Of a stretch of DNA of 64,000 bases, positions 13,094 through 16,345 are shown piece by piece; the stretch's first letter is position 1, and each line of letters starts with the position of its first letter. Source of the DNA: Sinimarinibacterium flocculans (GTDB lineage Bacteria > Pseudomonadota > Gammaproteobacteria > Nevskiales > Nevskiaceae); contig NZ_QICN01000001.1 of assembly GCF_003201205.1 (NCBI RefSeq), forward strand, positions 434,001 through 498,000, written 5' to 3'. The translations under genes were made by a program, and so were the position numbers. The notes beneath the pieces were generated by a model. That model had not been told where the DNA came from. It saw only the letters and a list, made by a program, of their open reading frames with translations, and searched no databases.

Positions 13094-13272
13094 GCTTTGC
13101 CGGCAGCGACGGCAGCACCGCAGGACCCGCGTCGTCAACGACAGCGGGCCAGCGGCATCGCAACAGGGCCCGGGGCATCTCGTCCTCGCCGCGGGCCACG
13201 CCAATATCCGACGGATGTCCGCGAGCGCGCGATGCGTGCACCGATCCGCCGCCAACCGTGAGAACAATACCC

Positions 13273-15378
13273 ATGGCCGTTCCCGCCACACCCGCCACAC
13301 CGATCCGCAAGACCTTCCGCTACGGCAGCCGCGACGTCACCATCGAAACCGGCGCCATCGCGCGCCAGGCCAGCGGTGCGGTCACCGTCACGGTCGACGA
13401 GACCGTGGTGCTGGTTACCGTCGTTGCCCGCAAGGATGCCAAGCCGGACCAGGACTTCTTTCCGCTGACGGTCGACTACCTCGAGAAGTTCTACGCCGGC
13501 GGCCGCATCCCCGGCGGCTTCTTCAAGCGCGAGGGACGCCCGACGGAGAAGGAGACCCTCACCAGCCGCCTGATCGACCGGCCGATCCGCCCGCTGTTCC
13601 CGGACGGCTTCTACAACGAGATCCAGATCATCGCGCAGGTGATGTCGCTGAACCCGGAGGTCGACGGCGAGATCCCGGCGATGATCGGTGCCTCGGCGGC
13701 GCTGGCGCTGTCCGGCGTTCCGTTCGCGGGGCCCATCGGTGCCGCCAAGGTCGGTTACAAGAACGGCAACTACATCCTCAATCCTTCCAAGAGCGAGCTG
13801 GCCGACTCCGAGCTCGAGCTCGTGGTTGCCGGGACCAAGGATGCGGTGCTGATGGTCGAGTCCGAGGCCAAGATGCTGCCGGAGCCGGTCATGCTTGGCG
13901 CCGTGCTGTTCGGCCACGAGCAGATGCAGGCCGCCATCCAGGCGATCAACGAGCTGGCCGCCGAGGCCGGCAAGCCGAAGTGGGAGTGGACGGCGCCGGA
14001 TCGCAGCGCGGTCAAGGCCTTCGTCGCCCAGTTCGAGGGCGCGATCACCGAGGCCTACGGGCACACCGACAAGCAGACGCGCTACGGCAAGCTGGACGAG
14101 GTCGCCAAGCAGGCCAAGGCTGCCCGTCCGGCCGACGCGCCGTTCACCGACAACCATATCAAGGCGGAACTCGACGAGCTCAAGGCCAAGATCGTGCGCA
14201 ACCGCATCCTCGACGGTGCGCCGCGCATCGACGGTCGCGACCGCGAGACGGTGCGTCCGCTGGCCATCAGCACCGGTGTGATGCCGCGTGCCCACGGTTC
14301 GGCGCTGTTCACGCGCGGCGAGACGCAGGCCATCGCGATCACGACGCTGGGCACCGGCAAGGACTACCAGATCATCGACGCGATCGACGGCGAGACCCAC
14401 GATCACTTCCTGTTCCACTACAACTTCCCGCCGTACTGCGTGGGCGAGACCGGGCGTGTGAACATGCCCAAGCGCCGCGAAGTCGGCCACGGCCGCCTCG
14501 CCAAGCGCGGTGTCGCGGCGGTGATGCCGGACCTCGACAAGGAATTCCCGTACGTCGTGCGCGTGGTTTCGGAGATCACCGAGTCCAACGGCTCGTCGTC
14601 GATGGCTTCGGTCTGCGGCGCCTGCCTGTCGCTGATGGACGCCGGTGTGCCGATCAAGGCGCCGGTGGCCGGTGTCGCGATGGGCCTGATTCTCGAGGGT
14701 TCGCGCTGGGCCGTGCTGACGGACATCCTCGGTGACGAGGACCACCTCGGCGACATGGACTTCAAGGTCGCCGGCACCGAAGGCGGCGTCACGGCGCTGC
14801 AGATGGACATCAAGGTGGCCGGCATCAGCGGCGAGATCATGGCGCAGGCGCTCACGCAGGCGAAGGCCGCGCGTCTGCACATCCTCAAGCAGATGAACGA
14901 GGTGCTGGCGACGCCGCGCAGCAACCTGTCGCCGTATGCGCCGCAGATCACGACGATCAAGATCCACCCGGACAAGATCCGCGAAGTGATCGGCAAGGGC
15001 GGCTCGACCATCCAGGCGATCACGCGCGAGACCGGCACGTCGATCGACATCAGCGACGACGGCACGATCAAGATCGCCGCGGTCGACGGCAAGGCGGCGG
15101 AGGCGGCGATCAACCGCATCCAGACGCTGACCCGCGACGTCGAGGTCGGCGCGATCTACGAGGGCAAGGTCGCCAAGATCATGGACTTCGGCGCCTTCGT
15201 CACGATTGCCCCGGGCAAGGACGGCCTCGTGCACATCTCGCAGCTCGCCGACAAGCGCGTCGAGAAGGTCGAGGACGTGGTCAAGGAAGGGCAGGAAGTC
15301 CGCGTCAAGGTGCTCGAAGTCAGCCGCGACGGCAAGATCCGCCTGTCGATGAAGGCGGTCGACGTCGAAGCTGCATGA
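13273..15378 (+). CDS. pnp: Polyribonucleotide nucleotidyltransferase (PNPase)
   Basis: Phosphorolytic 3'-5' exoribonuclease and degradosome component. About 701 residues: two RNase PH-like domains (first: [20 protein letters not shown]; second: [16 protein letters not shown], then [14 protein letters not shown]), a KH domain ([20 protein letters not shown], about 555-610) and an S1 domain ([20 protein letters not shown], about 620-690). The ATG at 13273 is preferred over an in-frame GTG at 13258 by alignment of the N-terminus with other PNPases; neither has a strong Shine-Dalgarno sequence. The 3' flank carries an 11-bp perfect palindrome and other hairpins. Confidence 0.97.
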
Positions 15379-15394
15379 ACTTTGGTTGAACGGA

Positions 15395-15419
15395 GCCGGA
15401 TTCTGCGTCAGAATCCGGC
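15395..15419. repeat. Perfect inverted repeat in the pnp 3' flank
   Basis: 11-base arms GCCGGATTCTG and CAGAATCCGGC around a CGT loop, 16 bases after the pnp stop. No T run follows on the plus strand, so it looks like an RNA-stabilising or processing hairpin rather than a terminator. Confidence 0.7.
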
Positions 15420-15504
15420 CCCACCAACATAGCGCCTCCGGTGTCAGCACCGAGCACCGGGGTGGTCTTTCTGGGGAGATCGGAGCAGCCCGCACGTACG
15501 GGCG

Positions 15505-15534
15505 AAAAAAGAAGCCCCCTGGGATACAGGGGGC
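15505..15534 (-). terminator. Rho-independent terminator, minus strand
   Basis: Read on the minus strand, GCCCCCTG and CAGGGGGC form a perfect 8-bp stem with a 5-base loop, followed by TTCTTTTTT. It would end the candidate small RNA and any transcript running out of phaR. Confidence 0.88.
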
Positions 15535-15580
15535 AAGGTGCGAGAAAGGCGCGAGGCCTTTCTGGAGGAGACCTTCCTGA

Positions 15581-15611
15581 CCCGGCACGCCACCCGGCCT
15601 GCCGGGTTTTT
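15581..15611 (+). terminator. Terminator for pnp, plus strand
   Basis: CCCGGCA (15581-15587) pairs with TGCCGGG (15600-15606) and is followed by TTTTT. The same bases, read on the other strand, form the 5' hairpin of the candidate small RNA. Confidence 0.65.
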
Positions 15612-15635
15612 CGTTGCCGCGTCATGTTGCAGTGC

Positions 15636-15664
15636 AGTATAGGGATGGCTGACTGTGAAGTCAA
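15636..15664 (-). promoter_or_regulatory. Strong sigma-70-type promoter of the candidate small RNA
   Basis: On the minus strand TTGACT (15659-15664) and TATACT (15636-15641) each match consensus at five of six positions and are separated by exactly 17 bases. An A/T block at 15678-15702, about 50-75 bases upstream of the predicted start, could act as a distal UP element. Confidence 0.82.
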
Positions 15665-15767
15665 CAAACCGGCCTCATTTATAAAATATTATAAAACAGG
15701 CACTTATCTGTGACTTCGGGCCGATTTGTGACGCGAACGTCACTTCGCCGTTGCAACGCTCGCGCGA

Positions 15768-16286
15768 TCAGCGCGCTTGATCCGCGTCCTCGGCTCCCGC
15801 GTCGATACCCGCGCGGCGCTTGATCGACTTGGCGCGCGACGACAGGTTGCGCAGGAACTCGGCGCGGACGGAACGCCAGATCGGTACCTGCCGTTCGGCG
15901 ATGTCGACGAGGCTCTGGATCGGTTGCGGTGCCTGACCGAGCAGGCCCCGCAACTGCTCGGTGAACTGGTGTTGCTGCTGCTGGAACAGCTGGGCCGACA
16001 ATTCCAGATAGCGGCCGATGCTGTTCTGCATCGGGTCACCGTAGTAGCGGATGATGAATTCGAGCAGGTCGGTCGTGAAGATCGGATCGCCGCCTTCTTC
16101 CTGCTCCGCGATCACCTGCAGCAGGATGCTGCGGGTGATGTCGTCGCCGGTGCGCTTGTCCTCGACCCGGAACGGGATGTGTTCGAGGACCAGCTTGCGA
16201 ATCTCTTCGAGCGTGATGTACCGGCTGATGTGGGTGTCGTACAGACGCCGGTTCGGATACTTCTTGATGACGCGTGATTCGCTCAT
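15768..16286 (-). CDS. phaR: Polyhydroxyalkanoate synthesis repressor PhaR
   Basis: Regulator of polyhydroxyalkanoate granule genes that binds both DNA and polymer. The N-terminal PHB/PHA accumulation regulator DNA-binding domain is unmistakable: RVIKKYPNRRLYDTHISRYI, then TLEEIRKLVLE. It is followed by the PHB_acc domain (GDPIFTTDLLEFIIRYYGDPMQNS) and a glutamine-rich helix. 172 residues from ATG 16286; an upstream GTG at 16316 would add 10 residues. No phaC/phaA/phaB or phasin gene is in the window. Confidence 0.9.
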   Translation of the reverse strand: MSESRVIKKYPNRRLYDTHISRYITLEEIRKLVLEHIPFRVEDKRTGDDITRSILLQVIAEQEEGGDPIFTTDLLEFIIRYYGDPMQNSIGRYLELSAQLFQQQQHQFTEQLRGLLGQAPQPIQSLVDIAERQVPIWRSVRAEFLRNLSSRAKSIKRRAGIDAGAEDADQAR

Positions 16287-16345
16287 GTCGACAGGGTCTT
16301 GGGGCTGATGTTGCACTGCGTTTGCTGCATAGCATCATGCCAGAC

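Follow-up and report, generated by a model that had tools for sequence, protein, structure and literature searches.

The locus lies in a 64,000-nucleotide stretch of the Sinimarinibacterium flocculans genome, called the window here. The named sequences nearest to its pnp include Fontimonas, Solimonas and Sinimarinibacterium, which places it in the order Nevskiales or the GTDB counterpart. Between pnp and phaR, on the minus strand, there is a predicted small RNA (sRNA) gene provided with a promoter, an operator-like site and a terminator. Positions are counted from the first letter of the window.

13258..15378, plus strand: pnp, convergent with the sRNA (TIGR03591, 1052 bits)
15505..15630, minus strand: predicted sRNA transcript of about 120-126 nt, with its start near 15628-15630 placed from the -10 box
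15505..15534, minus strand: intrinsic terminator hairpin and U tract (8-pair stem at 15534..15514, then a T run)
15535..15542, minus strand: second single-stranded segment CGCACCUU, predicted seed 2 (from the fold)
15543..15563, minus strand: core stem-loop of 8 pairs (covariation)
15564..15573, minus strand: CU-rich single-stranded segment GGUCUCCUCC, predicted seed 1 (anti-Shine-Dalgarno, anti-SD), unpaired in the centroid fold
15578..15624, minus strand: 5' hairpin (from the fold; sequence variable beyond near relatives, by eye)
15625..15636, minus strand: predicted PhaR operator TGCACTGCAACA, overlapping the last -10 base and the predicted start site
15636..15641, minus strand: -10 box TATACT (sequence scan and comparison of copies)
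15659..15664, minus strand: -35 box TTGACT (at least 5 of 6 bases kept in 41 of 42 copies)
15768..16286, minus strand: phaR, with its ATG start at 16286; the sRNA is just 3' of it on the same strand
16309..16320, minus strand: PhaR-type site CGCAGTGCAACA, 34 nt ahead of the phaR ATG; predicted autoregulation

The product of phaR matches TIGR01848 with 146 bits (cut-off 109), and PF07879 and PF05233 also above their cut-offs. An earlier, sequence-only reading had described an sRNA of trans-acting layout that has a promoter of its own, an anti-SD segment and a terminator, and we support this layout, the function being a predicted one. The promoter TTGACT-17-TATACT is present on the minus strand where it had been placed (15664..15636), as is the terminator. 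A scan of 5 kb gave one promoter where 0.6 is expected and four terminators where 2.5 are expected; promoter and terminator are therefore not significant alone, and conservation decides whether the sRNA is real. The predicted RNA folds better than 200 of 200 shuffles (z -3.77 for 126 nt and -3.88 for 122 nt), the median length over 90 copies is 124.5 nt, and the U-rich terminator tail is the sole Hfq-type feature seen. Regarding the 5' stem-loop that had also been described, the hairpin exists, but its sequence, unlike that of the core, varies across the order (by eye) and it is terminator-like for pnp on the plus strand: an inner hairpin at 15592-15607 followed by TTTTT resembles a pnp terminator and is shared, on the opposite strand, with the 5' half of the sRNA.

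The core of the RNA is formed by single-stranded GUCUCCUCC, an 8-pair stem, single-stranded CGCACCUU and the terminator, which is the architecture of a double-hairpin RNA. The CU-rich anti-SD segment noticed from the letters is in place, with TCTCCTCC single-stranded in the centroid fold of the core. In 26 diverse copies, chosen from 32 by omitting four with the stem shifted by one base and two near-duplicates, the CTCCTCC of seed 1 and the CGCA of seed 2 are invariant, and helix 1 is paired in 96.1% of cells with changes on both sides in 6 of its 8 pairs. Covariation of the whole structure amounts to 0.381 versus 0.097 when shuffled (0 of 500 shuffles as high), and slid controls reach at most 0.239. 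An alignment-free test of the arms found 7 of 7 arm pairs in 123 of 127 anchored copies, the anchor being missing in 2 of 129; the mean pairing over 17 distinct arm pairs is 6.35 versus a null of 5.02 with a maximum of 5.88. The second stem that had been proposed between the CU-rich segment and the terminator thus shows strong covariation.

Loss in relatives had been named beforehand as one outcome that would speak against the RNA; it was looked for and not found. A DNA search matched the region in 58 of 61 genomes, its own included. A covariance model of the core (R1), built from 20 sequences drawn from some of the genomes later searched, matched 80 of 85 genomes of the order, again with its own, or 68 of the 72 of good quality. 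Many genomes contain 2 to 5 copies, some of them in tandem. Among the five genomes without the sRNA, two (G035 and G076) are in fragments, a third (G084) reaches 81% completeness and likewise gives no PhaR match, and G054 and G059 are 97-99% complete. A broader model (R2), whose strict filters may miss weak members, identified the RNA in 10 of 369 genomes of the class, four within the order and six outside it. When applied to 80 named pnp loci, R2 matched 13 (L031-L043) and 0 of the 67 others at E 0.1; of the positive loci, L039 is labelled Rhodospirillales and L040 Gammaproteobacteria. By this conservation the sRNA gene is real, with a transcript that is itself predicted. The Rfam covariance search that had been proposed as a check gave only three tRNAs as gathering matches in the window and no family at threshold at the sRNA locus, consistent with an undescribed RNA. 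The literature searched, covered in part and mostly at title level, describes this sRNA nowhere and contains nothing on Solimonas small RNAs. A phage-borne origin was considered and rejected, since an exact 15-mer occurs in 51 viral stretches and R2 confirmed 0 of these 51 at E 0.1; a search for plasmid relatives of the core at L244, a locus outside the order, returned a single, irrelevant match.

Besides the promoter boxes, the locus has a control element that the sequence-only reading overlooked. Directly 3' of the -10 box, TGCACTGCAACA fits published PhaR sites. The PhaR consensus is given as TGCRNYGCASMA in Bradyrhizobium (PMC6201568) and as YTKNTGCRNYGCANMAR in Ralstonia (PMC12849132), and the window site agrees with the core of both, not with every outer position of either. 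It satisfies the PhaR-regulon pattern TGCRNYGCANMA, whose R, Y, M and A positions are obeyed in 90 of 90 sites adjacent to a -10 box. A -10 box followed by a GCA..GCA site, (T/C)GCANNGCANC(A/G), was present in 42 of the 44 copies first extracted, and TGCRNYGCANNA lies at most 150 nt upstream in 96 of 129 distinct copies, leaving 33 without the site. For the 90 copies whose site adjoins the -10 box, variation was counted with a pattern that requires TGC and GCA alone and leaves the other positions free. Position 4 is A in 88 and G in 2 (R in 90 of 90), position 6 is C in 45 and T in 45, never A or G (Y in 90 of 90), and positions 11 and 12 are C and A, respectively, in all 90. The free operator positions vary only within the PhaR consensus in these copies, which are related and hence not independent trials. 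A strict pattern, TGCANTGCANCA, occurs 14 times in the window's genome versus 0 for the reversed control, with several of the sites inside genes by eye. Also in this genome, TGCANTGCAACA sites (L117, L120, L122) stand before pyrophosphatase-, TrkA- and acyl-CoA dehydrogenase-like genes, by eye.

Counting both strands, the motif family seen before phaR is present in 53 of the 69 distinct phaR upstream regions compared, 7 of the 69 being from outside the order; it is found in 0.9% of base-shuffled sequences and, when reversed, in 3 of 69. Three genomes (G044, G047, G082) have the sRNA with no TIGR01848 match, and in all three the operator is absent and TACGAAAGTCGTA replaces it (loci L227, L228 and L224); a phaR gene may have been missed in G082, which is only 87% complete. 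Co-loss of PhaR and operator is not a strict rule, because G055 and G056 also carry TACGAAAGTCGTA at the sRNA yet keep PhaR, and G060 keeps PhaR with neither site. TACGAAAGTCGTA is a palindrome placed before TATACT at L224-L228, in part of one genus. Separately, (T)AGGTAAGTTA is common to paralogues in one genus (L136, L146 at 1179, L152 at 1827, L182, L188 at 1801, L216), where it stands between the -35 and -10 region and may be a further operator.

The neighbourhood ties the family to phaR. Within the fetched flanks of the 129 copies there are phaR and pnp in 73, phaR only in 8, pnp only in 9, a GcvA-type gene in 7 and none of these in 32; the PhaR-type site is present in 63, 7, 6, 1 and 19 of these copies, respectively. 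All 81 phaR-linked copies have the sRNA 3' of phaR, with both on one strand, and 11 of the 81 have no PhaR-type site. Outside the order, the arrangement is phaR, phasin, sRNA at L244, phasin, sRNA at L245 and phaR, sRNA, pnp at L246; L248 is beside pnp, and L240-L242 show no phaR, phasin or pnp. By eye, PhaR-type sites can be recognised in both phasin promoters, that of L244 and that of L245. A link to PhaR had been suspected earlier by way of antisense action on pnp. The link itself is supported, but the operator in the sRNA promoter and the position 3' of phaR explain it better. What stands of the antisense claim is overlap with the 3' flank of pnp only, since the RNA, whose end is near 15505, does not reach the pnp stop at 15378. 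Antisense action on pnp was rejected as the main function, because the RNA is beyond the pnp stop and unlinked copies exist.

The window's genome contains a second sRNA with the same core (L163 1534-1603, minus strand; G000:C9:111233-111302), whose stem is wholly different in sequence and still paired. It is divergent from gcvA, on the opposite strand and 127 nt apart (NF008352 GcvA 300.9 bits, cut-off 288), and copies at L164, L167 and L171 are placed likewise. The enterobacterial sRNA GcvB is divergent from gcvA too; the GcvB Rfam model gave no row for L163 among matches to E 5 or, in a second search, to E 1. Second copies at L025 1781, L029 1289 and L201 1775 have CTCCTTGA in place of CTCCTCCA and no recognisable promoter or operator, which suggests a diverged seed or decayed copies.

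PhaR is known in other bacteria as a sensor of stored carbon. We think that the locus encodes a PhaR-repressed, trans-acting double-hairpin sRNA that would report the status of the carbon store, and we give this reading a probability of about 0.68. The conserved promoter, the conserved operator-like site, the core structure and the linkage to phaR are there at the level of sequence. Transcription, binding of PhaR, the direction of regulation and pairing with targets are predictions drawn from these. In a cell without stored granules, PhaR would occupy TGCACTGCAACA, which lies between the -10 box and the start site, and block transcription; once reserves form, the granule surface would titrate PhaR and the sRNA would be made. 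Its single-stranded CUCCUCC and CGCACCUU could then pair with Shine-Dalgarno regions and block translation of uptake and breakdown genes for carbon, mostly hydrophobic, and, in the window's genome, probably also of some wax-ester/TAG synthases. Thus, the sRNA may report full reserves as a signal to take up and store carbon more slowly. PhaR can also activate, as described for phaP3 in R. eutropha (PMC12849132).

Candidate targets were sought through GGAGGAGA with an ATG 2-9 nt further on, which occurs 29 times in the window's genome versus 0 for the reversed control. Scanning the ORFs behind 23 of the 29 sites (leaving out 6 ORFs of 2-148 aa) revealed two WS/DGAT genes (L375 and L376, only the latter being a listed TIGR02946 match), an acyl-CoA dehydrogenase, an AMP-binding ligase, a P450, two FMO-like enzymes, a Rieske oxygenase, a LolA-like/DUF1329 protein, three TonB plugs and OmpW. 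Unrelated genes are also among them, such as those for an AraC regulator, a penicillin amidase and a peptidase, and the YbaB and SpoVR sites look internal. In G006, 26 of 33 site ORFs were scanned (leaving out 7 of 14-89 aa), giving a protein with a fatty-acid-desaturase domain (AlkB-like by eye), an FMO, part of a phenol hydroxylase, two DUF1302 and one DUF1329 proteins, a DcaP porin, a TonB plug, an acyl-CoA dehydrogenase, HgmA, a sugar transporter and unrelated genes. WS/DGAT was dropped as a conserved target because it is not general: none is among these 26 ORFs, and of 20 WS/DGAT genes examined in the same genus, the top one or two listed for each genome, 4 have GGAGGAGA at the ribosome-binding site, including the gene that prompted the idea. 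The predicted targets are weak evidence, because GGAGGAGA is simply a strong SD.

The nature of the store in this organism deserves attention. In the window's genome, PHA synthase models gave only 19- and 22-bit matches, none convincing, and no PF09361 phasin was found; the TIGR01838 search was restricted to this genome. TIGR01836, which also detects the Caulobacter enzyme below its cut-off and so served as a general PhaC detector, has no match in 16 of 85 genomes, 14 of which have the sRNA. The wax-ester/TAG synthase model TIGR02946 matches in 83 of 85 genomes, five times in the window's own. G054 and G059, the two genomes in which it is missing, lack the sRNA as well, though PhaR is present (Fisher p 0.003); they count as one event because they belong to the same genus. 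Outside the order, TIGR02946 is found in 4 of 6 sRNA genomes versus 1 of 16 sRNA-less ones (16 of 20 listed), in a comparison that is not taxonomy-matched; the tie is not absolute, because G221 and G428 have the sRNA without TIGR02946. With weak PHA synthase matches and no PF09361 phasin, the classical PhaR signal may be absent here, and a classical PHB reading for the window's genome is weakened. Since there are five WS/DGAT matches instead, the sensed store may be neutral lipid, and neutral lipid bodies may be taken as the leading candidate for the PhaR signal in this genome.

We think that several aspects make this family worth study. The family is a large addition to the known sRNAs, is backed by covariation and reaches threshold with no Rfam model. 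A likely upstream regulator, PhaR, is in hand, which is rare for orphan sRNA families, and PhaR-to-sRNA control of carbon storage is suggested beyond the rhizobial MmgR case. Moreover, it is a testable puzzle that PhaR and the sRNA persist where PHA synthase is not detectable and wax-ester synthases are present.

Other explanations have to be weighed against the PhaR-repressed sRNA. A conserved housekeeping double-hairpin sRNA might be driven by a constitutive sigma-70 promoter, TGCANYGCANCA being then part of the promoter or the RNA 5' end instead of a PhaR site. The motif does abut the -10 box, would be partly transcribed and, in tandem as in dispersed copies, is passed on together with the promoter; however, the restriction of position 6 to C or T, the same motif before phaR at a different distance and its absence in the three sRNA genomes with no PhaR match make this explanation unlikely. 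The convergence with pnp and the terminator-like 5' hairpin on the plus strand would also suit a local element that curbs read-through from pnp by antisense action or transcription collision, its RNA having little function in trans. We regard this as very improbable, given that none of pnp, phaR and gcvA is in the fetched flanks of 32 of 129 copies and that the conserved part is the core, not the 5' hairpin.

The sequence-only reading had also suggested an RsmA-type regulatory RNA, that is, one sequestering RsmA/CsrA in the manner of RsmY/Z, and stem-loops with a terminator are indeed present. Rsm decoys carry several GGA motifs, whereas the 96 copies with a PhaR-type site have 0 or 1 in 84 cases (46 with none, 38 with one) and 2 or 3 in 12 (7 and 5, respectively), so that the RNA is unlike the RsmY/RsmZ/CsrB type and RsmA-type action is unlikely by this count. 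As the locus has, in addition, no gathering match to any Rfam family, this suggestion is scarcely credible.

Three known systems come closest. MmgR of Sinorhizobium meliloti (alpha-r8; RF00519, suhB) is likewise a small trans-encoded sRNA with a CU-rich single-stranded segment and a terminator, and it has a PhaR(AniA)-type promoter site of the same sequence type and a tie to storage (PMC12542648, PMC8401924). In S. meliloti, a study of PhaR binding lists TGCACCGCAGCA for the promoter of mmgR and describes MmgR as repressed by PhaR (PMC12542648), and MmgR is described as acting negatively on storage, on PHB and phasins (PMC8401924). That promoter trait is present in the window sRNA and in 96 of 129 copies. 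In contrast, RF00519 gives only 15.6 bits at 15300-15800 of the window, where it and RF02278 are the highest-scoring sub-threshold rows, and at most 26.9 among 20 loci (the paralogue L163), with a gathering threshold of 41. The CUCC run is 3' of hairpin 1 in the MmgR model and 5' of it here, and the present family, unlike MmgR, is often tandem or multicopy and beside phaR.

The toxic sRNA or double-hairpin RNAs of Betaproteobacteria (ncS03, ncS05, ncS27 and ncS62, RF02278) and Bordetella S17 also have two hairpins and CU-rich anti-RBS segments, several copies per genome and predicted targets in carbon uptake and metabolism, and ncS03, ncS05 and ncS27 are higher in glucose medium (PMC5688073, PMC11722255). 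Three of the four ncS RNAs reportedly have an upstream motif in common (PMC5688073). Folds, invariants and covariation reveal the same two hairpins and CU-rich single-stranded segments in our family. RF02278, however, gives 15.5 bits for the window and at best 29.0 (L237) among 20 loci, with a gathering threshold of 50, and the main text of both papers does not name PhaR. The Neisseria NmsR sibling sRNAs, likened here by description, are tandem siblings with CU-rich segments directed against the RBS (PMC5688073).

Direct homology with MmgR or with the betaproteobacterial RNAs, as one ancient family and not by convergence, would be compatible with the PhaR-repressed sRNA. The CU-rich/double-hairpin plan is shared (PMC5688073), and full-length, in-register sub-threshold matches to both models recur in several of the 20 loci, so that distant kinship with RF00519/RF02278 is conceivable. 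With every score under gathering and the CUCC run on the other side of hairpin 1 in the MmgR model, we consider direct homology possible, if doubtful. A wider proposal, speculative and rather unlikely in our opinion, is that Nevskiales PhaR, repurposed or broader, would sense wax ester/TAG bodies with the sRNA family as its main output. Lipid-full release of PhaR would then raise the sRNA and shut hydrophobic-carbon uptake and wax-ester synthases, and MmgR, the betaproteobacterial double-hairpin RNAs and the present family would form one storage-signal lineage. MmgR offers the published parallel for the control logic, and the present RNA probably works like it while failing the RF00519 model; the Burkholderia double-hairpin RNAs, as described in PMC5688073, are by analogy the precedent for the anatomy and for the class of targets.
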